A stretch of DNA of 64,000 bases from positions 310,001-374,000 of the forward strand of contig NZ_SSCL01000002.1 of assembly GCF_005876955.1 (NCBI RefSeq), written 5' to 3'. The notes beneath the pieces are model-generated. The model did no database searches. It was not told the origin of the DNA and saw nothing but the letters and a program-made list of their open reading frames with translations. The translations under genes were made by a program, and so were the position numbers. Of the stretch, positions 49,455 to 57,084 are shown piece by piece; position 1 is the first letter of the stretch, and each line of letters begins with the position of its first letter. This DNA is from Sinomonas gamaensis (lineage in GTDB: Bacteria; Actinomycetota; Actinomycetes; Actinomycetales; Micrococcaceae).

Positions 49455-52400
49455 CTAGCCCACGAGTTCAGGTTGCAGCGCATCCAGGCGCAGCAGCACA
49501 TCACCCTCCCGGAGCTCGGATGCCCGGTGGGTCACCATGACGACCGTGCGATCGGCGAGCGCGGAGTGCAGCCCAGTGATGAGTTGTTGCGCGGCCTCGG
49601 GGTCGAGGTGCGCCGTCGGTTCGTCGAGGAGGACGACGGCGGCATCCGCCACGAGCGCGCGGGCGACGGCAAGGCGTTGGCGCTGCCCGCCTGAAAGCTG
49701 GGCACCGCGGCTGCCGATCCGGGCGTCCAACCCGCCGGGGAGCGCCTTGACGTGGTCCCCCAGGCCAACGCGATCGAGGACCTCCCAGAGCTCCTCGTCG
49801 TCCGGTGCGTCGTCGCGCTCCCTCGCCACGGCCAGATTCCCTCTCACCGTCGAGTCGAAGAGATGGGATTCCTGGGGGCACCAGGCCAAGCTGCCGCGGG
49901 CGGAGATGCGGCCTCCCCGTGGTGGGATGAATCCGAGCAGGGCCGCCAGGAGCGTTGACTTCCCGCTTCCGGATGGGCCGGCGACCACGAGCCACTCCCC
50001 GGGAGCTGCCGAGGCGGAGAGGTCGCGGAAAACGGAGGGGTGCCCCGGCCAGCCCGCCGCGAGCGACTCCACGGTCAGGCCCGGGGTGGCTTGAGGCGCC
50101 GGCGCAGACGGCTCACGGTGGGCCCCCTGTGCTTCGTGTCGGGCGAGGTCCGCACGGGAGAGGGCAGCGCGGGAGAGGGCAGCGCGGGAGAGGGCCGCAC
50201 GGAGCGCAGGGATGCGCTGGACGGCGACGCTCGCGGCGGCGAAGGGCTCGGCGAGGGCGAGCTGCAGGAGCAGGACGGCGGCCGCGATGCTCGCCGGCGT
50301 GCCCTCGGCGGCGGCGGCGAGTGTCGCTACGGCGGCGAGTCCGGTGGCGGCGATGACGATGGCGCGTCCGAGCCCTTCCGCCGCCACGCCGCGCCGTTCG
50401 AGCGCAGTGAGCCGCCGGTCGTCCGCCGTGACCGAGCCGAGGACCCGTCCTGCGAGCCGGTTGGCGGCCAGGTCGGGGGCCGCGGCGAGGATCTGCCCGA
50501 TGCGCTGAATGAGGAAACCGCGAGCCTTCTGGGCGTCCCGGGCCGATCGGCGGTCCGCCCACGCGGCGGCCAGCGGGGCGACCGCAACCGAGGCGATCAC
50601 GGCAAGTCCGAAGACGGGCAGCTGTGCGGGCAGGAGGACTGCGACGGCCGCGAATGATGCAGTTCCGAGAAGGAGCGCGGTCGCCAGGGGCTGGACGATC
50701 CGCGGGAGCTCGTCGCGGACCGCCTCCGCGTCCCCGACGAGACTCTCGAGGGCCGCGCCCGGGACGAGCAGGCGCCGGGCGCTCAGGCCGCGGGAGGCGA
50801 GGTCCTGCCAGAGCCAATCCCGCAGGCGGGTGAGCGTCGCGAAGACCGCCGCGTGCGTGGACAGTCGCTCGGCGTACCGCAGCGCCGCGCGGGCGATGCC
50901 GAAGAAGCGCACTCCGACGATTGCGGCCAGCAGGTAGAGGATGGGCGGCTGCTCGGCTGCGCGCACGATGAGCCAACCCGACAGGCCCGCAAGGGCCGCC
51001 GCGGCGGCGGCGGAACCGAGTCCAGCGAGCGCCGCGAGGAGGTAGCGCGGCAGGTCGGGACGGACGAGGGCCCATAGGGCCCGCACCCACGGTCCCCCGT
51101 CGTGCCCGGTGCCGTCCGCAGAAGCGCTCTCGCGCGGCGGAACCGCGCCTGCGATAGCGTCCACAGGCGCGCCGAACCGCTGGGCGGGGGCGCAGAGGTC
51201 GTGAGCGGGAGCGAGCTGGACCCGAGTGTGGGCGAGGGCTGCGGTTTCGGGGTCGTGCGCCACCAGCAGGACTGTCGCCCGTCCGCGCAGGCCGGCGATC
51301 GCGGTCTCGACAGCGGCTGCCGACTGGGCGTCGAGATGCGCGGTCGGCTCGTCGAGCAGGAGCAGGGTCGCGCCGGCGGCCACGCGGAGGAGCCCGCGGG
51401 CGACGGCGATGCGCCGCTGCTGCCCGGGGCTCAGTTCGGCTGGGTTCGCCTCGGCGAGGTCGCCGCAGAGAACCGCGTCCAGGGCGTCACTAACGGAAGC
51501 GGATACCAGTCCGGCAGGCATCCCGTCGGCAGACAGCGTGAGTTCTGCGCGGACGGTCGGCTCGGTGAACTGAGGGTGCTGCGGGACGTAGGCGACGCGT
51601 TGGGGCGCCGCACCGGCGGCCACCCCGGCCACGCTGGCGCCGGCTCCGTCGCGCAGCAGGCCAGCGACTACGTGGAGCACGGTGGTCTTGCCAGCTCCGC
51701 TCGGCCCCTCGAGAAGAGTGATCTCCCCGTTCGGTGCCGTGAACGCCAAGCCGTCCAGCACGGGGCTCGGGCGCCCCGCGTACCGCACGGTGAGTCCCGC
51801 AATCCGGAGGTCCACGGGCCGGGCGAGGTCACCGACGTCGTCGGAGGAAAGCCGGCGGCCGCGCGGACGGGCGATCTCCTCCTCAGCGCGCCGGAGGGCC
51901 TCTGCCCCATCCTGGCTCGCGTGGTGTGCGGTTCCGAGGTCGCGCAAGGGCTGGAAGCACTCGGGCGCGAGGACGAGGGCCAGGATGCCGGCCTCGAGCG
52001 GCATCTCTCCGTGGACGAGTCGAACGCCGATGAACACGGCCACGACCGCGACCGAGATCGTCGAGAGGAACTCGAGCGCGAGCGAGGACATGAAGGCGAC
52101 GCGCAGCGTGCCCATCGTCCGCTTGGAGAATTCCTCGGACAGCGCCCGGAGGGCGCGGCGCTGCTCGGCGGCCCGGCCCAGGCCCACAAGGACAGGCAGG
52201 CCCTGGGCGAGTTCCACCAAGTGCGCACCGAGGCGGGCGAGCGCCCGCTGCGCCGCAGAGACGCGATCCTCGGTGTGCTTGCCGATGAGGATCATGAAGA
52301 CGGGCACGAGGGGCAGCGTGAGCGCGATGATGACGGCGCTCACCCAGTCCGCACCGAGAATGCGGGCACCGACGATGAGCGGAACGGCGCAGCATTGGAC

Positions 52401-52859
52401 CAGTGCAGGAAGGTAGGCGGTGTAGAACGAGTCGAGTGCATCCAGCCCGCGCACGGCGAGCACCGCGGTCCCGGCGGCCGACGACGCGATCCGGTTGTCG
52501 CCGTCGTCCTTGTTGTCGCCGTCGTCCTTGTTGTCGCCGCCGTCCCCTTCCGTCGGCGCGGCGTTGCCGCCGCGCTCGAGAGCGGCCTGGACGAGGCGGG
52601 CCCGCAGCTCCTCCCGCACGCCGAGGGCGGCCCAGCGCCCGGTTTGAAGGGCGGCCCACTCCCCCAGGGCGCGGAGCAGGACGCCGAAGGCGGCCATGGC
52701 CGCCGGCCAGTCGCCGCCATGCCCGGCAAAGGCACCCGCCAGCCCGGAGGCGACGCCCTGCGCCACGAGGACGAGGGCAACGGCCTTGATGACTGCGAGG
52801 ATCGTCAGGAACACGAGGGCGGTGCGGGTCGTCCGGCCCGAGGGGATGCTGGGGCGCAT
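49455..52859 (-). CDS. cydDC: Fused CydD-CydC ABC exporter for cytochrome bd assembly
   Basis: The 1134-residue single-chain ABC exporter combines CydD and CydC, which export glutathione/cysteine (here probably a thiol such as mycothiol or cysteine) and are needed for cytochrome bd assembly. Each half has a membrane domain and an ATPase. The CydD half has Walker A GPSGAGKTT and signature LSPGQQRR; the CydC half has GPSGSGKST and LSGGQRQRLAVARAL. The CydD N-terminal part contains a repeated GDNKDD segment. The ATG at 52859 is preferred over a start 54 bases upstream inside cydB, since GAGG lies 9 nt upstream. It follows cydB by 4 bp. Confidence 0.93.
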   Translation of the reverse strand: MRPSIPSGRTTRTALVFLTILAVIKAVALVLVAQGVASGLAGAFAGHGGDWPAAMAAFGVLLRALGEWAALQTGRWAALGVREELRARLVQAALERGGNAAPTEGDGGDNKDDGDNKDDGDNRIASSAAGTAVLAVRGLDALDSFYTAYLPALVQCCAVPLIVGARILGADWVSAVIIALTLPLVPVFMILIGKHTEDRVSAAQRALARLGAHLVELAQGLPVLVGLGRAAEQRRALRALSEEFSKRTMGTLRVAFMSSLALEFLSTISVAVVAVFIGVRLVHGEMPLEAGILALVLAPECFQPLRDLGTAHHASQDGAEALRRAEEEIARPRGRRLSSDDVGDLARPVDLRIAGLTVRYAGRPSPVLDGLAFTAPNGEITLLEGPSGAGKTTVLHVVAGLLRDGAGASVAGVAAGAAPQRVAYVPQHPQFTEPTVRAELTLSADGMPAGLVSASVSDALDAVLCGDLAEANPAELSPGQQRRIAVARGLLRVAAGATLLLLDEPTAHLDAQSAAAVETAIAGLRGRATVLLVAHDPETAALAHTRVQLAPAHDLCAPAQRFGAPVDAIAGAVPPRESASADGTGHDGGPWVRALWALVRPDLPRYLLAALAGLGSAAAAAALAGLSGWLIVRAAEQPPILYLLAAIVGVRFFGIARAALRYAERLSTHAAVFATLTRLRDWLWQDLASRGLSARRLLVPGAALESLVGDAEAVRDELPRIVQPLATALLLGTASFAAVAVLLPAQLPVFGLAVIASVAVAPLAAAWADRRSARDAQKARGFLIQRIGQILAAAPDLAANRLAGRVLGSVTADDRRLTALERRGVAAEGLGRAIVIAATGLAAVATLAAAAEGTPASIAAAVLLLQLALAEPFAAASVAVQRIPALRAALSRAALSRAALSRADLARHEAQGAHREPSAPAPQATPGLTVESLAAGWPGHPSVFRDLSASAAPGEWLVVAGPSGSGKSTLLAALLGFIPPRGGRISARGSLAWCPQESHLFDSTVRGNLAVARERDDAPDDEELWEVLDRVGLGDHVKALPGGLDARIGSRGAQLSGGQRQRLAVARALVADAAVVLLDEPTAHLDPEAAQQLITGLHSALADRTVVMVTHRASELREGDVLLRLDALQPELVG
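52494..52547. repeat. 18-bp tandem repeat within cydD encoding GDNKDD units
   Basis: Two exact copies of an 18-bp unit (52494-52511, 52512-52529) and a third diverged copy (52530-52547). Read on the minus strand they encode GDN-KDD-GDN-KDD-GDN in frame, in a loop of the first membrane domain. The frame is kept because the unit is a multiple of three; it is a likely length-variable, hydrophilic insertion. Confidence 0.9.
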
Positions 52860-52863
52860 GGAG

Positions 52864-53967
52864 CTAGGCCTCTTTCGCGGGCGCCCGCTCGGCCCCGTGG
52901 GATCCAGTGACAAGCCGCGTCAGGAAGGCAGGGACCACGTTGTGGGCTGTGGGGATGCTGCCGACGGTGATGCGCCTCCGGAAGACCCAGTAGGTCCAGC
53001 TCTGGTACGCGAGGACGAGCGGGAGGCCGATGAGGGCGACGACCGTCATGAGGCCCAGGGTGTAGGACGAGGATGAGGCCGTCCCGACCGTCAGGCTGTT
53101 GGCTGGGTCGAGGGTGGACGGCAGCACCACGGGGTAGACAGCGCTGAAGATCCCCGCCGCCCCCGAGGAGAGGAAGGCGGCCATGAGGAGGAAGGCCCTC
53201 CCCTCGGAACCGCGGCGGGCGAGCTGCCACAAGACGAGCGCGGCCAGGGCTGCGAGAGCAGTGAGGGTCCAGCTCCACCACTTGCCGTTCCGCAGCTGGA
53301 TGTCAACGGCCCAGACGACGAGCGGCAGGATTCCCAGCGGCATCCAGCGGCGGAAGGCGCGGTGGGCCCTGACCCGCACGTCGCCGTCGGTCTTCAGGGC
53401 GAGGAAGGCGAGGGCGTGGACGAGCGCGAACCCGACGACGGCGAGGCCGCCGAGCACGGCGTACCAGGTGAACCAGGCGAACGGGCCGCCCACGCGGTCG
53501 CCGTTCGCGTCCAGCGGCAGTCCAGTGGTAGTGAGCGCGAGCATCGCGCCGACGCAGAATGCCGCGAGGAAGGAGCCTAGGCCGATCGCCCAGTCCCATG
53601 CCGCCGTCCAGCGGGCGGAGGCGATCTTGCCGCGGTACTCGAAGGCGACGGCGCGGAAGATGAGCGCGACGAGCGCGAGCGTGAGCGGAAGGTACAGGCC
53701 GGAGAACAGGGAGGCGTACCACCGCGGGAACGCGGCGAAGGTCGCCCCGCCGGCAGTGAGGAGCCAGACCTCGTTGCCGTCCCAGACCGGCCCGACGGTG
53801 TTCAGCAGCACGCGCCGCTCGGCCTCGTCGCGGGCGAACAGCTTCATGAGCATGCCGACCCCGAGGTCGAAGCCCTCGAGGAAGAGGTAGCCGATCCAGA
53901 GGACGGCAACGGCGCAGAACCACACAGTCGGCAGTGGCGTGGACAGAGCAGTGGGCAGGGTCTCCAT
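52864..53967 (-). CDS. cydB: Cytochrome bd oxidase subunit II
   Basis: The 367-residue membrane protein (about eight or nine helices) is subunit II of the quinol oxidase that reduces O2 to water at low oxygen. The N-terminal FCAVAVLWIGYLFLEGFDLGVGML, LNTVGPVWDGNEVWLLTAGGATFAAFP and FRAVAFEYRGKI are conserved in CydB. It is full length. The ATG at 53967 lies 10 bp after the cydA stop, with GTAGGAGC-like bases nearby; cydDC follows 4 bp after. The cydABDC order is standard in actinobacteria. Confidence 0.97.
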   Translation of the reverse strand: METLPTALSTPLPTVWFCAVAVLWIGYLFLEGFDLGVGMLMKLFARDEAERRVLLNTVGPVWDGNEVWLLTAGGATFAAFPRWYASLFSGLYLPLTLALVALIFRAVAFEYRGKIASARWTAAWDWAIGLGSFLAAFCVGAMLALTTTGLPLDANGDRVGGPFAWFTWYAVLGGLAVVGFALVHALAFLALKTDGDVRVRAHRAFRRWMPLGILPLVVWAVDIQLRNGKWWSWTLTALAALAALVLWQLARRGSEGRAFLLMAAFLSSGAAGIFSAVYPVVLPSTLDPANSLTVGTASSSSYTLGLMTVVALIGLPLVLAYQSWTYWVFRRRITVGSIPTAHNVVPAFLTRLVTGSHGAERAPAKEA

Positions 53968-53977
53968 CAGTGCGCTC

Positions 53978-55549
53978 CTAGTAGGCGAAGGCCAGGACGT
54001 CGTCGGACTGCTTGTGCTCCCCGTCGTCGTGCTTTTCGGCGAGCTCCGGCATGGCAGAGGCGACGCCGCCGCGCGTGTAGCGCCACAGCAGCCGGACCTC
54101 CACGACCATGAGGGCGGCGTACACGAGAGTGAGGATGACGAGCGACGTCAGGATCTCCCCCGCGCTCACCCCCGGCGATACGGCGGCTGCGGTGAACATG
54201 AACACCTGGTCCACGCTGCCTGCCATCGACGGGTTCGGGGCCACGACGAACGGTTGGCGTCCCATCTCCGTGAAGATCCAGCCGGCCGCGTTGGCGCCGA
54301 ACGGCGCAAGGATGCCGACCACGGCGAGGCGCATGAGCCAGCGGGCTTGAGGCACCGTGCCCTTGCGCGTGAGGTAGAGGGCGACGGCGGCAGCGAGGGC
54401 GGCGATGCCTCCGAACCCGATCATCATGCGGAAACCCCAATAGGTCACTTCCATGACGGGCACGTACTGGATGGACTGGCCAGCTCGATCGCCGTAGATC
54501 GGGTTGTTGGGGAGTGCGGCCCCGTAGGCCTGCTTGTACTCGGTCTGCAGGCTGTTCACGCCCTTGACGTCAGTCGAGAAGTCGCCTTTGGCGAGGAACG
54601 AGAGCAGCCCGGGGATCTCAATGACAGCGGCCACGTTCGAGCAGTCCTTCGAGCCGAGGTCGCCGACCGAGAGCACCGAGAAGCTCGTGCCGTCATGGCA
54701 AGCGGCCTCGGCAGCCGCCATCTTCATGGGCTGCTGCTCGAACATGAGCTTGCCTTGGAGGTCGCCCGTGATGGCCGTGCCGGCGAAGGAGATCATGGCG
54801 ACGACGGCCCCGATGCGGAGGCTGCGCAGCCACACGGCGTGGTCCGCACGGTCGCGGCCGGGAAGCTCGGGGTTCGCGCCGGGCACCACCCGTCCGTTGG
54901 CGTCGACCGCGTCGATGCCGTCGTGCCGGCGCTGCCAGAGGTGGTACCACGAGATGCCGAGGAGGAAGGCGCCGGCCACGCCCAGTGCGCCGAGCAGCGT
55001 GTGCGGGACCGCAACCAGCGCCGTGTTGTTGGTGAAGACGGCCCACGCGTCGGTCATGACGGGCCGCCCGTTCACGAGGGTGACCCCGACGGGGTGCTGC
55101 ATCCAGCTGTTCGCCACGATGATGAAGTAGGCAGAGACTGCCGAGCCGATGACGGCGCACCACAGCGCGACGAGGTGCAGGCCTGGCCGCAGGAGCTTCC
55201 AGCCGAAGATCCACAGGCCCAGGAAGGTCGACTCCACGAAGAACGCAAGGAGCGCCTCCATCGCGAGCGGCGCGCCGAAGACGTCGCCCACGAACCGGCT
55301 GTATTCGCTCCAGGCCATCCCGAACTGGAACTCCTGCACGATCCCGGTGGCGACGCCCATGATGAAGTTGATGAGGAAGAGCTTGCCCCAGAACTTGGTC
55401 ATCCTGAGATACTCGGGCTTCCTGGTGCGGAACCAGACAGTCTGCATCACCGCGACGACGAGCCCGAGCCCGATCGTGAGCGGGACCATCATGAAGTGGT
55501 AGACAGTGGTGATCCCGAACTGCCAGCGGGCGATTTCCAAGGCGTCCAT
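53978..55549 (-). CDS. cydA: Cytochrome bd oxidase subunit I
   Basis: The 523-residue subunit I binds hemes b558, b595 and d and the quinol. It begins MDALEIARWQFGITTVYHFMMVPLTIGLG, with the heme-b595 histidine in VYHFMMVPL (H18). The quinol loop carries AGWIFTEMGRQPFVV, and the b558 ligands lie in the VPHTLLGALG and MMIGFG regions. The short Q-loop fits the actinobacterial short form. The ATG at 55549 has AGGAG 5 nt upstream. Three TTCTAC-N5-GTAGAA palindromes lie 31-105 bp upstream. The operon likely responds to a regulator encoded by the divergent blaI gene. Confidence 0.98.
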   Translation of the reverse strand: MDALEIARWQFGITTVYHFMMVPLTIGLGLVVAVMQTVWFRTRKPEYLRMTKFWGKLFLINFIMGVATGIVQEFQFGMAWSEYSRFVGDVFGAPLAMEALLAFFVESTFLGLWIFGWKLLRPGLHLVALWCAVIGSAVSAYFIIVANSWMQHPVGVTLVNGRPVMTDAWAVFTNNTALVAVPHTLLGALGVAGAFLLGISWYHLWQRRHDGIDAVDANGRVVPGANPELPGRDRADHAVWLRSLRIGAVVAMISFAGTAITGDLQGKLMFEQQPMKMAAAEAACHDGTSFSVLSVGDLGSKDCSNVAAVIEIPGLLSFLAKGDFSTDVKGVNSLQTEYKQAYGAALPNNPIYGDRAGQSIQYVPVMEVTYWGFRMMIGFGGIAALAAAVALYLTRKGTVPQARWLMRLAVVGILAPFGANAAGWIFTEMGRQPFVVAPNPSMAGSVDQVFMFTAAAVSPGVSAGEILTSLVILTLVYAALMVVEVRLLWRYTRGGVASAMPELAEKHDDGEHKQSDDVLAFAY

Positions 55550-55580
55550 CTGCGCTCCTGTCGAGGGCTGAACCCCAATC

Positions 55581-55597
55581 TTCTACATCCCGTAGAA
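55581..55597. promoter_or_regulatory. BlaI-type operator 1 (TTCTAC-N5-GTAGAA)
   Basis: TTCTACATCCCGTAGAA is a 17-bp palindrome with exact 6-bp arms, 31 bp upstream of cydA. It is one of three in the cydA-blaI gap. The TAC/GTA core suits BlaI/MecI/CopY winged-helix repressors. Confidence 0.8.
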
Positions 55598-55605
55598 GAC
55601 TCGGC

Positions 55606-55622
55606 TTCTACAGAGTGTAGAA
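55606..55622. promoter_or_regulatory. BlaI-type operator 2 (TTCTAC-N5-GTAGAA)
   Basis: TTCTACAGAGTGTAGAA has exact 6-bp arms that extend to 7 bp (TTCTACA/TGTAGAA), making it the most symmetric of the three. Its TACA-N3-TGTA core is the form seen in BlaI/MecI operators. Its centre is 25 bp from operator 1. Confidence 0.82.
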
Positions 55623-55637
55623 CATCTCCCTTTTGTC

Positions 55638-55654
55638 TTCTACCTCGCGTAGAA
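55638..55654. promoter_or_regulatory. BlaI-type operator 3 (TTCTAC-N5-GTAGAA)
   Basis: TTCTACCTCGCGTAGAA has exact 6-bp arms and lies 65 bp before the blaI ATG. A -10-like TAGAAT at 55650-55655 overlaps its right arm, so a bound repressor would also block blaI transcription. Its centre is 32 bp from operator 2. Confidence 0.8.
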
Positions 55655-55718
55655 TGGATACACGGACCCGCAGCGACCGCCTGCAGGAACCCGTTGGATT
55701 TCAGGGAAGGACAAGAAG

Positions 55719-56081
55719 ATGGCAAGCCTGGGGGAGCTCGAGCGCTCGGTGATGGACCAGCTGTGGTCGACGTCGGAAGCGTCAACGGCGAACGAGCTGC
55801 GTGACCGCCTCGCGCAGAGCGAAGTGCAAAGCAAGGACCTTGCCGTGACGACCGTCCTCACCGTTCTGTCCCGACTCGAGAAGAAGGGCCTCGTCGAGCG
55901 TGAGCGCGGCACCCGCCCTCACCGCTACCGGGCGGTTTCGACGCGCGAGGACCACACCGCACGCCTCATGCATGAAGCCTTGGGCACCGCCCCGGACAGG
56001 GAGGCCGTCCTCGCCCGCTTCATCGGAAGCGTGACTGAAGCGGAGGCAGCCACGCTGCGCAGACTCCTCGCTCGGGGCTGA
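55719..56081 (+). CDS. BlaI/MecI/CopY-family transcriptional repressor
   Basis: The 120-residue winged-helix repressor has the family layout: ELERSVMDQLWSTSEASTANELRDRLAQ, the recognition region DLAVTTVLTVLSRLEKKGLVERERGTRPHRYRAV and a C-terminal dimer domain. Members repress beta-lactamase, copper or other stress genes and are released by cleavage or ligand. The ATG at 55719 has GAAGGA 7 nt upstream. It is followed after 25 bp by an M56 peptidase gene, the usual sensor partner. Three palindromic operators in its promoter suggest autoregulation and control of the divergent cydABDC operon. Confidence 0.93.
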   Translation: MASLGELERSVMDQLWSTSEASTANELRDRLAQSEVQSKDLAVTTVLTVLSRLEKKGLVERERGTRPHRYRAVSTREDHTARLMHEALGTAPDREAVLARFIGSVTEAEAATLRRLLARG

Positions 56082-56106: not shown

Positions 56107-57084
56107 GTGCTGCTCACCGCCTATCTCCTTGCGCTGCTGGCAATCCTGCTCGCGTGGCCGGTGCCAGTGGCGCTTTCGCGTGCCCGGTGGACCTCCCGCT
56201 CGCCGTTCGCGGCGATGGTGCTGTGGCAGTCGATCGCCCTCGCTGGCGGCCTCTCGATGATCGGCGCCATGCTCGTCTACGGCCTCGAGCCCCTTGGCGA
56301 CAACCTCCTACAGGCGCTCCGGCGCGCCATCGGCATCGTGCTCGGGAATCGCGCGACGGACGAACTCCACTTCTGGCATCTCTTCGCCCTGTGCGCAGCA
56401 GCCCTCCTCGGCACCCACCTCATCTTCACGCTCGGTCTCACTTACGCGCGGATCACGACCCAGCGGCGTCGGCACCGTGCACTCCTCGAAGTGCTGAGCT
56501 CGCCCTCCGGAGCGATCGAGCGCACCCTCGTCATCAACCACCCCGCCCCCGTCGCCTACTGCCTCCCGGGTGGGTCCCGGTCAGTGACCGTCCTCTCCGA
56601 CGGCCTCCTGGAGGCGCTCTCGCCCGCAGAGCTCGCTGCCGTCGTCGACCATGAGCGCGCCCACCTGACCCAGCGGCACCATCTGCTGCTGTGGGCCTTC
56701 GAGGCGTGGCGGCAGGCCCTCCCCTGGCTGCCGACCACACGCCTCTCCCGCGCCGCCGTGTCGTCGCTCGTCGAGATGCTCGCGGACGACATTGCGCGGC
56801 GGACCACACCCGACGAGACACTCGTCCGAGCCATCGCCCTGGTTGCCCTCGGCGGGGGGGCAGCCGAGGCGCCCCAAGGCCTGCCCGCCGTCGTCCGCCC
56901 CGAGCCCGCCATCGAACCTGGAATGCCCGACGAAGGCGAGGCTTCCCTCGCCGCCCGGGTCAGCCGGCTGCTCACCCCGCGCCCGCCGCTCGGCAGAGCG
57001 AGGACGACGGCGGTGCTCGCCGGCTCCGGGCTCCTCCTCGCCGTGCCCACCGTCCTCCTGCTGGCGCCGGGGCTCGTGGGGTAA
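56107..57084 (+). CDS. M56-family membrane metallopeptidase (BlaR1-like)
   Basis: The 325-residue integral membrane zinc metallopeptidase is a likely partner of the BlaI-type repressor. The zinc motif HERAH (H182, E183, H186) with a likely third ligand E223 (EMLADD) is intact. Hydrophobic segments are at about 3-22, 33-58, 90-112 and near the C-terminus (305-323). The extracellular penicillin-binding sensor domain of BlaR1 is missing, so any signal must be different, perhaps redox, heme or quinone. The start is GTG at 56107. It is convergent with parE, 12 bp away. Confidence 0.9.
   Translation: MLLTAYLLALLAILLAWPVPVALSRARWTSRSPFAAMVLWQSIALAGGLSMIGAMLVYGLEPLGDNLLQALRRAIGIVLGNRATDELHFWHLFALCAAALLGTHLIFTLGLTYARITTQRRRHRALLEVLSSPSGAIERTLVINHPAPVAYCLPGGSRSVTVLSDGLLEALSPAELAAVVDHERAHLTQRHHLLLWAFEAWRQALPWLPTTRLSRAAVSSLVEMLADDIARRTTPDETLVRAIALVALGGGAAEAPQGLPAVVRPEPAIEPGMPDEGEASLAARVSRLLTPRPPLGRARTTAVLAGSGLLLAVPTVLLLAPGLVG

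Follow-up and report, generated by a model that had tools for sequence, protein, structure and literature searches.

The cytochrome bd operon of Sinomonas gamaensis, a member of the Micrococcaceae, is separated from a divergent BlaI-like gene by a short gap that carries three copies of one inverted repeat. Are these repeats the sites through which the BlaI-like protein controls the respiratory operon, and if so, which other genes are controlled in this way, and in answer to what signal? The locus lies in a 64,000 nucleotide stretch of contig NZ_SSCL01000002.1, the whole of which is called the window here.

The bd operon occupies the minus strand and consists of cydA, encoding cytochrome bd subunit I (53978–55549; PF01654, 501 bits), cydB, encoding subunit II (52864–53967; PF02322 and TIGR00203), and cydDC (49455–52913). 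A preliminary description of this DNA had placed a CydDC exporter in the operon; it is present, but CydD and CydC form a single fused protein of 1152 amino acids (TIGR02857 CydD at residues 30–566, TIGR02868 CydC at residues 613–1130). The divergent gene (55719–56081, plus strand) encodes a 120 amino acid protein that, as that description had it, belongs to the BlaI/MecI/CopY (Penicillinase_R) family, with a PF03965 score of 78.6 bits over residues 4–118 against a cut-off of 22.6. Its closest solved chain is 2g9w (72.7 bits), and it falls below the thresholds of the named NCBIfam models TIGR02698 CopY (27.9 vs 121.95), MecI (21.3 vs 250) and BlaI_of_BCL (20.7 vs 180). Next to it, also on the plus strand, is the gene of a BlaR1-like membrane zinc protease of 325 amino acids (56107–57084).

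The gap between cydA and blaI

The 169 bp gap (55550–55718) contains three exact 17-mers of the form TTCTAC-N5-GTAGAA, all putative BlaI-type operators: operator 1 is proximal to cydA (TTCTAC-ATCCC-GTAGAA, 55581–55597), operator 2 is in the middle (TTCTAC-AGAGT-GTAGAA, 55606–55622) and operator 3 is proximal to blaI (TTCTAC-CTCGC-GTAGAA, 55638–55654). Their centre spacings are 25 and 32 bp, and palindromes, spacings and gap length are all as first described. With up to two mismatches allowed, the pattern has four matches in the window against 0.18 expected, and none of 100 shuffles reaches four. The search of the genome and of its relatives that had been proposed gives six exact sites in the 4.32 Mb genome, where the reversed control pattern has none, and three sites at cydA in the relatives compared: in the best 80 of 515, all of them Sinomonas and Arthrobacter-type genera, each of the 80 named loci has a divergent cydA, the protease gene and exactly three sites. 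In each of the 15 genomes of the genus there are 5–9 exact sites, and the control pattern is absent. A chance origin of the palindromes is ruled out by the shuffles, by the reversed control and by the genus-wide and (see below) family-wide site counts.

Among the 80 relatives, in which the arms of the repeats are fixed by the search pattern itself, the spacers drift in most sites, and the middle site is the exception. Read towards cydA, the first three bases of the operator 2 spacer are A, C and T in 79, 78 and all 80 relatives, respectively; operator 1 has T at position 3 in just 13. Actinobacterial -10 boxes take the form TACnnT, and the conservation of this motif in operator 2, as the sequence TACACT (55614–55619, minus strand) in the window, indicates that the middle operator most likely covers the -10 box of the cydA promoter and the cydA-proximal operator the early leader. 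A weaker candidate -10 box for the blaI promoter, TAGAAT (55650–55655, plus strand), overlaps operator 3; the base that follows this operator is T in 42 and A in 36 of the 80 relatives. We note that the distance between sites 2 and 3 in the window (55622–55638), 32 bp, is the minimum among the 80 relatives (range 32–142, with 88 and 99 the commonest values), which suggests a deletion in the lineage of the window.

Distribution of the sites and of BlaI

At E ≤ 1e-8, a BlaI was detected in 108 of the 120 family genomes; by score, 104 genomes have a clear BlaI (at least 90 bits), 4 a weak one and 12 none. At least two sites are present in 100 of the 104 clear-BlaI genomes and in none of the 16 whose BlaI is weak or missing (Fisher p 1.6e-16, uncorrected for relatedness), and the clear-BlaI genomes have a mean of 5.4 sites against 0.4 for the control. 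The four weak-BlaI genomes have one site each, 103–104 bp upstream of cydA, so that this is the last one kept. The 12 BlaI-less genomes have one site in total, and all seven of their cydA loci are without a site; two site-free genomes of family f4 likewise have no BlaI at E ≤ 1e-12. Four genomes have a clear BlaI and fewer than two exact sites. In genome G090 blaI, the protease gene and cydA adjoin, yet no site was found there, even when only the core CTAC-N5-GTAG was sought.

The protease gene is present at all of the 30 best BlaI loci of the family and cydA adjoins in 27, of which 21 have three sites and six have two. Where cydA lies elsewhere the site in front of blaI is kept. Genomes G004 and G035 have blaI on one contig and cydA on another, and the 1.5 kb around blaI contains no cydA; the unlinked cydA retains two tandem sites (58 and 82 bp upstream in one genome, 64 and 89 bp in the other) and blaI retains one. 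Genome G057 has BlaI and five sites and no cydA at E ≤ 1e-20.

Across the class 20 sites were analysed, 13 in f4 and seven in f24. The f4 loci comprise nine at cydA/blaI, two before a separate cydDC, one at hmp and one at a small membrane protein gene. Those of f24 stand before a cydA-like gene near BlaI, another cydA-like gene (27–30% identity), hemE and a CopC gene, one each, and the other three of the seven (L139, L140 and L141) have no evident respiratory target. The blaI promoters of f33, f24 and f20 have either TACTAC-N5-GTAGTA or TTCTAC-N5-GTAGAA, and most of those in f33 and f24 stand beside cydA; BlaI relatives in f25, f19 and f3 have neither such palindrome nor cydA alongside.

Three genomes, G177, G194 and G342, are called mycobacteria-like here on the basis of gene order and of the match of the G177 BlaI to chain 2g9w (227 bits over nearly the whole length), which carries the PDB label conserved hypothetical protein and which we take to be BlaI of Mycobacterium tuberculosis. 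Their sites were sought as TACTAC-N5-GTAGTA with at most one mismatch, a pattern that is rarer in them than its reversed control and shows no genome-wide enrichment, so only the positions of the matches count. Of 25 such matches 13 regions were taken, and L302 was left out. A site lies 28–32 bp upstream of cydA in all three genomes (L292–L294), and before blaI in all three (and in five of six f10 genomes). The three genomes also have a site before a ctaA-like gene, for heme A synthase, and two of them have one before the ATP synthase operon; the genes were identified by Pfam on representatives. L296 has only a small membrane protein gene as target, and L295 and L303 have no sensible target, L303 being inside a called gene.

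The three palindromes are thus very probably binding sites of the BlaI-family repressor. The main claim of the preliminary description, that BlaI-type operators tie a BlaI/protease pair to cydA, is supported at the sequence level by conservation, by the unlinked loci, by the joint loss of sites and BlaI, and by the sites in the mycobacteria-like genomes.

Genes adjoining sites away from cydA

The exact sites of the window's own genome are the three at cydA/blaI and one each at hmp, the yceI/ResA operon and a small membrane protein gene. A wider sample of 82 further sites was assembled, three from this genome (away from blaI), 39 from 10 other genomes of the genus and 40 from 13 genomes of other genera. 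The 10 are among the genus genomes listed, with G126–G129 and one G125 site outside the sample, as are the sites of G039, G080, G100 and G058 and the genomes of genus g12; L081, a blaI locus, is excluded from the counts. Genes were called with our own codon-usage script, and CcdA, atp, ctaA/ctaB (own genome) and the globin-like protein were named from translations, not searches. All but one of the 82 sites are intergenic, against 15.2% of random positions in the same loci, and for 78 the start of a gene follows within 200 bp, which holds for 8.4% of random positions.

The targets assigned to these sites are hemQ (17 sites), a small membrane protein without Pfam match (17), the divergent pair of yceI and a histidine phosphatase-ResA-CcdA-ResB operon (15), hmp, encoding flavohemoglobin (15), a DsbA-like gene (4), a 115 amino acid membrane protein (3), a DUF6326-type protein (2), a globin-like protein (2; from its translation, with no Pfam match) and seven single cases, including a CopC protein and, in a cydA-less genome, a cytochrome c. 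Pfam searches on representatives gave HemQ (chlorite dismutase family), ferrochelatase, HemE, ResB, YceI, the flavohemoglobin domains and a DsbA domain; several other targets are proteins of unknown kind. This wider set, with heme synthesis, cytochrome c maturation and hmp, had escaped the preliminary description.

With one mismatch the window's genome has six extra sites against five in all for the control, and their acceptance by number alone was dropped. Four of the six stand before hemQ, the ATP synthase operon, an ABC-ABC-ctaA operon and sucC, and the remaining two, L159 and L163, overlap called genes. The hemQ site is well supported by the exact sites of relatives. One-mismatch sites being hardly above control, those at atp, ctaA and sucC rest on position and are candidates; the atp one, TTCTATCTCATGTAGAA, has the atp genes on one side and a glycosyltransferase gene on the other. 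The regulon of this genome perhaps also takes in the ATP synthase and ABC-ctaA operons.

Several features of these loci deserve mention in their own right. The small membrane protein of L006 (6062–6403) and its counterparts in 16 relatives are conserved, are 105–133 amino acids long and are encoded 34–147 bp downstream of a site; the L006 protein has no Pfam match. Other small membrane proteins encoded right after sites, in L104, L117, L136 (115–116 amino acids), L155 and L296, come from genomes of three different families and resemble one another by eye, and those of L104, L155 and L296 are again without Pfam match. In two lineages a site is followed downstream by a gene with a CopC (copper) domain (L121, L142). 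The genomes of g12 (G012, G042, G066, G089 and G107) have 9–15 exact sites each, which is near the top of the range for the family and points to an expanded regulon. In Sinomonas hmp loci (L008 and others) a second inverted repeat, taattcagcat...atgc.gaatta, is seen by eye between the site and hmp; it resembles an NsrR-type operator, in which case hmp would have two repressors, and 12 of the 15 hmp loci have an Rrf2-family gene next to the site. At hemQ (L043, L047, L052 and others, in many genomes) a GTGA-N6-TCAC-like repeat, similar to CRP/GlxR sites, is seen by eye to abut the site on its upstream side, and between the site and yceI (L007 and others) there is, also by eye, a ATGCAnnTGCAT-type repeat.

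The protease, the proposed switch and known systems

The protease has the gluzincin motif HExxH + ExxxD of BlaR1 and MecR1 (family M56), as H182-E-R-A-H186 and E223-xxx-D227, and all 22 aligned homologues share H182, E183, H186, E223 and D227. The spacing of 41 residues from HExxH to the E/D motif is the same as in Staphylococcus aureus BlaR1, whose motif residues are given as H201 and E242 (PMC9834060). The preliminary description had called the protein an M56 zinc peptidase with an intact HERAH motif. The motif stands, but the M56 label does not at the Pfam cut-off: PF05569 gives 16.2 bits (19.9 for the L081 homologue) against a cut-off of 31, so strict Pfam M56 membership was rejected, and PF01435 (M48) is above its cut-off (40 vs 20.3 bits). 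Searching the PDB with a sequence profile built from the protease yields mainly M48 chains, and BlaR1 is absent from the matches. An AlphaFold2 model (mean pLDDT 86) has BlaR1 at Foldseek ranks 1–3 (E 2.3e-3 to 4.2e-3, TM-score 0.34–0.37, with TMq 0.35 at E 2.3e-3), a modest match, with zero matches at E ≤ 0.001. VIA places BlaR1 chain 8exq_A first (Z 11.2, rmsd 6.2, 217 aligned, model residues 4–282), with the M48 chains 4aw6_A (Z 10.2 over 103–291) and 6bh8_A (Z 9.8 over 1–289) close behind. The M48 proteases are near in Z, though mostly aligned over 103–291, and the match to the BlaR1 fold, narrowly ahead of M48, is thus no more than suggestive.

A penicillin-binding sensor domain had been reported as lacking, and indeed none is among the Pfam matches of the 325 residue protein, whose model ends after the last long helix (297–319). 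In the model the second long helix is joined to the third by a short stretch, and the membrane-crossing helices are predicted ones. The cysteine of an AYC(L/V)P motif (A150-Y151-C152-L153-P154, window 56554–56568) is invariant in all 22 homologues and could have a structural role or be a redox switch.

We propose the following switch. A BlaI dimer on the two cydA-side sites would cover the cydABDC -10 box and early leader and keep the operon off, and a dimer on the third site would repress blaI and the protease gene (autoregulation). In trans BlaI would act on hemQ-hemH (the last steps of heme b synthesis), the ResA/CcdA/ResB operon and divergent yceI, hmp and the small membrane protein gene. 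When respiration is impaired the BlaR1-like protease would cut or inactivate BlaI, by analogy with the BlaR1 precedent. The signal, a guess, would be a disturbance of electron flow or of the supply of heme at the membrane (a blocked heme-copper oxidase, NO or low oxygen) and not beta-lactams. Genome comparison shows that the sites are present and conserved, that they stand before genes and that across genomes they depend on BlaI, and we have little doubt about the operators and the regulon so defined. Repression by BlaI is very likely and its relief by the protease reasonably probable. The wording of the signal as an impairment of electron flow or heme, as opposed to beta-lactams, is tentative, since no sensor has been identified. 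The scheme as a whole, with BlaI operators, repression of cydABDC and blaI, a regulon in trans and protease relief, we regard as likely.

The palindrome might instead bind a different respiratory regulator, one that is unlinked and only co-occurs with BlaI, with BlaI controlling something else. The second, unrelated repeats seen by eye at hmp, hemQ and yceI do point to extra regulators, and G090 has a BlaI locus without a site. This reading is nonetheless improbable: one site stays with blaI where cydA has moved, sites vanish with BlaI, the same 17 bp architecture recurs at the blaI promoters of f24, f33 and f20 and, within one mismatch, at those of five of six f10 genomes, and the site positions in the mycobacteria-like genomes match BlaI targets described for M. 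tuberculosis (PMC5473688, PMC12565901). RNA hairpins or terminators in the leader, for which each 17-mer could judging from its sequence supply a 6 bp stem, are scarcely credible as an account of repeats of which one lies over a -10-like box, which serve two divergent genes and which follow the presence of BlaI rather than gene context.

With BlaI taken as the protein that binds the sites, the nature of the signal is still to be weighed. An ordinary beta-lactam-responsive BlaI/BlaR system could be beside cydA by accident; the repressor is after all a member of the BlaI family, and M. tuberculosis BlaI is reported to control blaC as well (PMC5473688), which makes a beta-lactam role possible. 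We consider such an accident quite unlikely here, given that the protease has no penicillin-binding domain, that no beta-lactamase or cell-wall gene was recognised at the 82 site loci (by Pfam on representatives only) and that the sites track cydA and the heme and cytochrome genes. A closer competitor keeps the BlaI part and makes the signal specific, as a shortage of heme or copper or the presence of nitric oxide rather than general respiratory impairment. HemQ-hemH, ResA/ResB and ctaA would point to heme, hmp and the globin-like protein (a translation reading without Pfam match) to NO, and the CopC genes that adjoin sites in two lineages to copper; against this, no single signal accounts for cydABDC, hmp and the heme genes together, and no sensor domain or ligand site was identified. 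A specific signal is a real possibility, if a somewhat doubtful one, next to the general impairment preferred here.

The distribution of targets suggests that BlaI-type repressors may be respiratory regulators first. The sensor-less BlaI/protease pair might be an old actinobacterial switch for heme supply and respiratory-chain remodelling that senses the state of electron transport in the membrane through the helices of the protease itself, with control of beta-lactamase in mycobacteria a later use, an idea that we put forward with reserve. How M. tuberculosis responds to beta-lactams when its BlaR has no sensor domain is described as unexplained in PMC5473688; a heme, cytochrome and NO-defence regulon with a conserved operator in soil bacteria turns the question of what signal such a pair answers into one of simple inducer tests. 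The operator pattern is also usable for mapping the regulon across many genomes.

Of the known systems, BlaR1-BlaI and MecR1-MecI of S. aureus share with this one the repressor family, the HExxH + ExxxD protease and the nearest solved fold, but have a penicillin-binding sensor and different targets. The half-site spacing of the staphylococcal BlaI/MecI operators also differs from that of TTCTAC-N5-GTAGAA. HrrSA of Corynebacterium glutamicum is described as co-regulating heme synthesis (hemE, hemH, hemQ), terminal oxidases and oxidative-stress genes, a task comparable to the one proposed here, but in that account it is a heme-responsive two-component system, a different type of protein from BlaI and its protease (PMC7337898). 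The closest parallel is BlaI (Rv1846c) and BlaR (Rv1845c) of M. tuberculosis, where the BlaR1-like partner is likewise described as having no extracellular sensor domain and the bd oxidase is a target (PMC5473688, PMC5874750); similar 17 bp sites are present in the mycobacteria-like genomes. Binding of BlaI to the bd oxidase and ATP synthase promoters is reported in a 2017 eLife paper (PMC5473688, citing Sala et al. 2009), a precedent for BlaI control of respiratory genes to which the preliminary description had correctly pointed, and binding at the Rv1303/atp promoter was seen by EMSA (PMC12565901). In arrangement the two differ, as six f10 genomes have no cydA within 1.5 kb of blaI and here the genes are divergent with three sites between them; in regulon they differ in that blaC is a target in M. 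tuberculosis (PMC5473688) and hemQ-hemH, ResA/CcdA/ResB, yceI and hmp are included here.

That the arrangement is little described, as first suggested, agrees with the open-licence full-text literature searched, in which neither the divergent three-operator cydA layout and its operator nor a paper joining BlaI with hemQ, cytochrome c maturation or hmp was encountered, although six of the papers listed contain both names, BlaI and HemQ, as text matches. The BlaI-bd link itself is not new, having been published for M. tuberculosis. What is known is thus the respiratory link of mycobacterial BlaI/BlaR, and what appears new against that literature is the divergent three-operator arrangement at cydA, the operator, and the regulon of heme synthesis, cytochrome c maturation and hmp.
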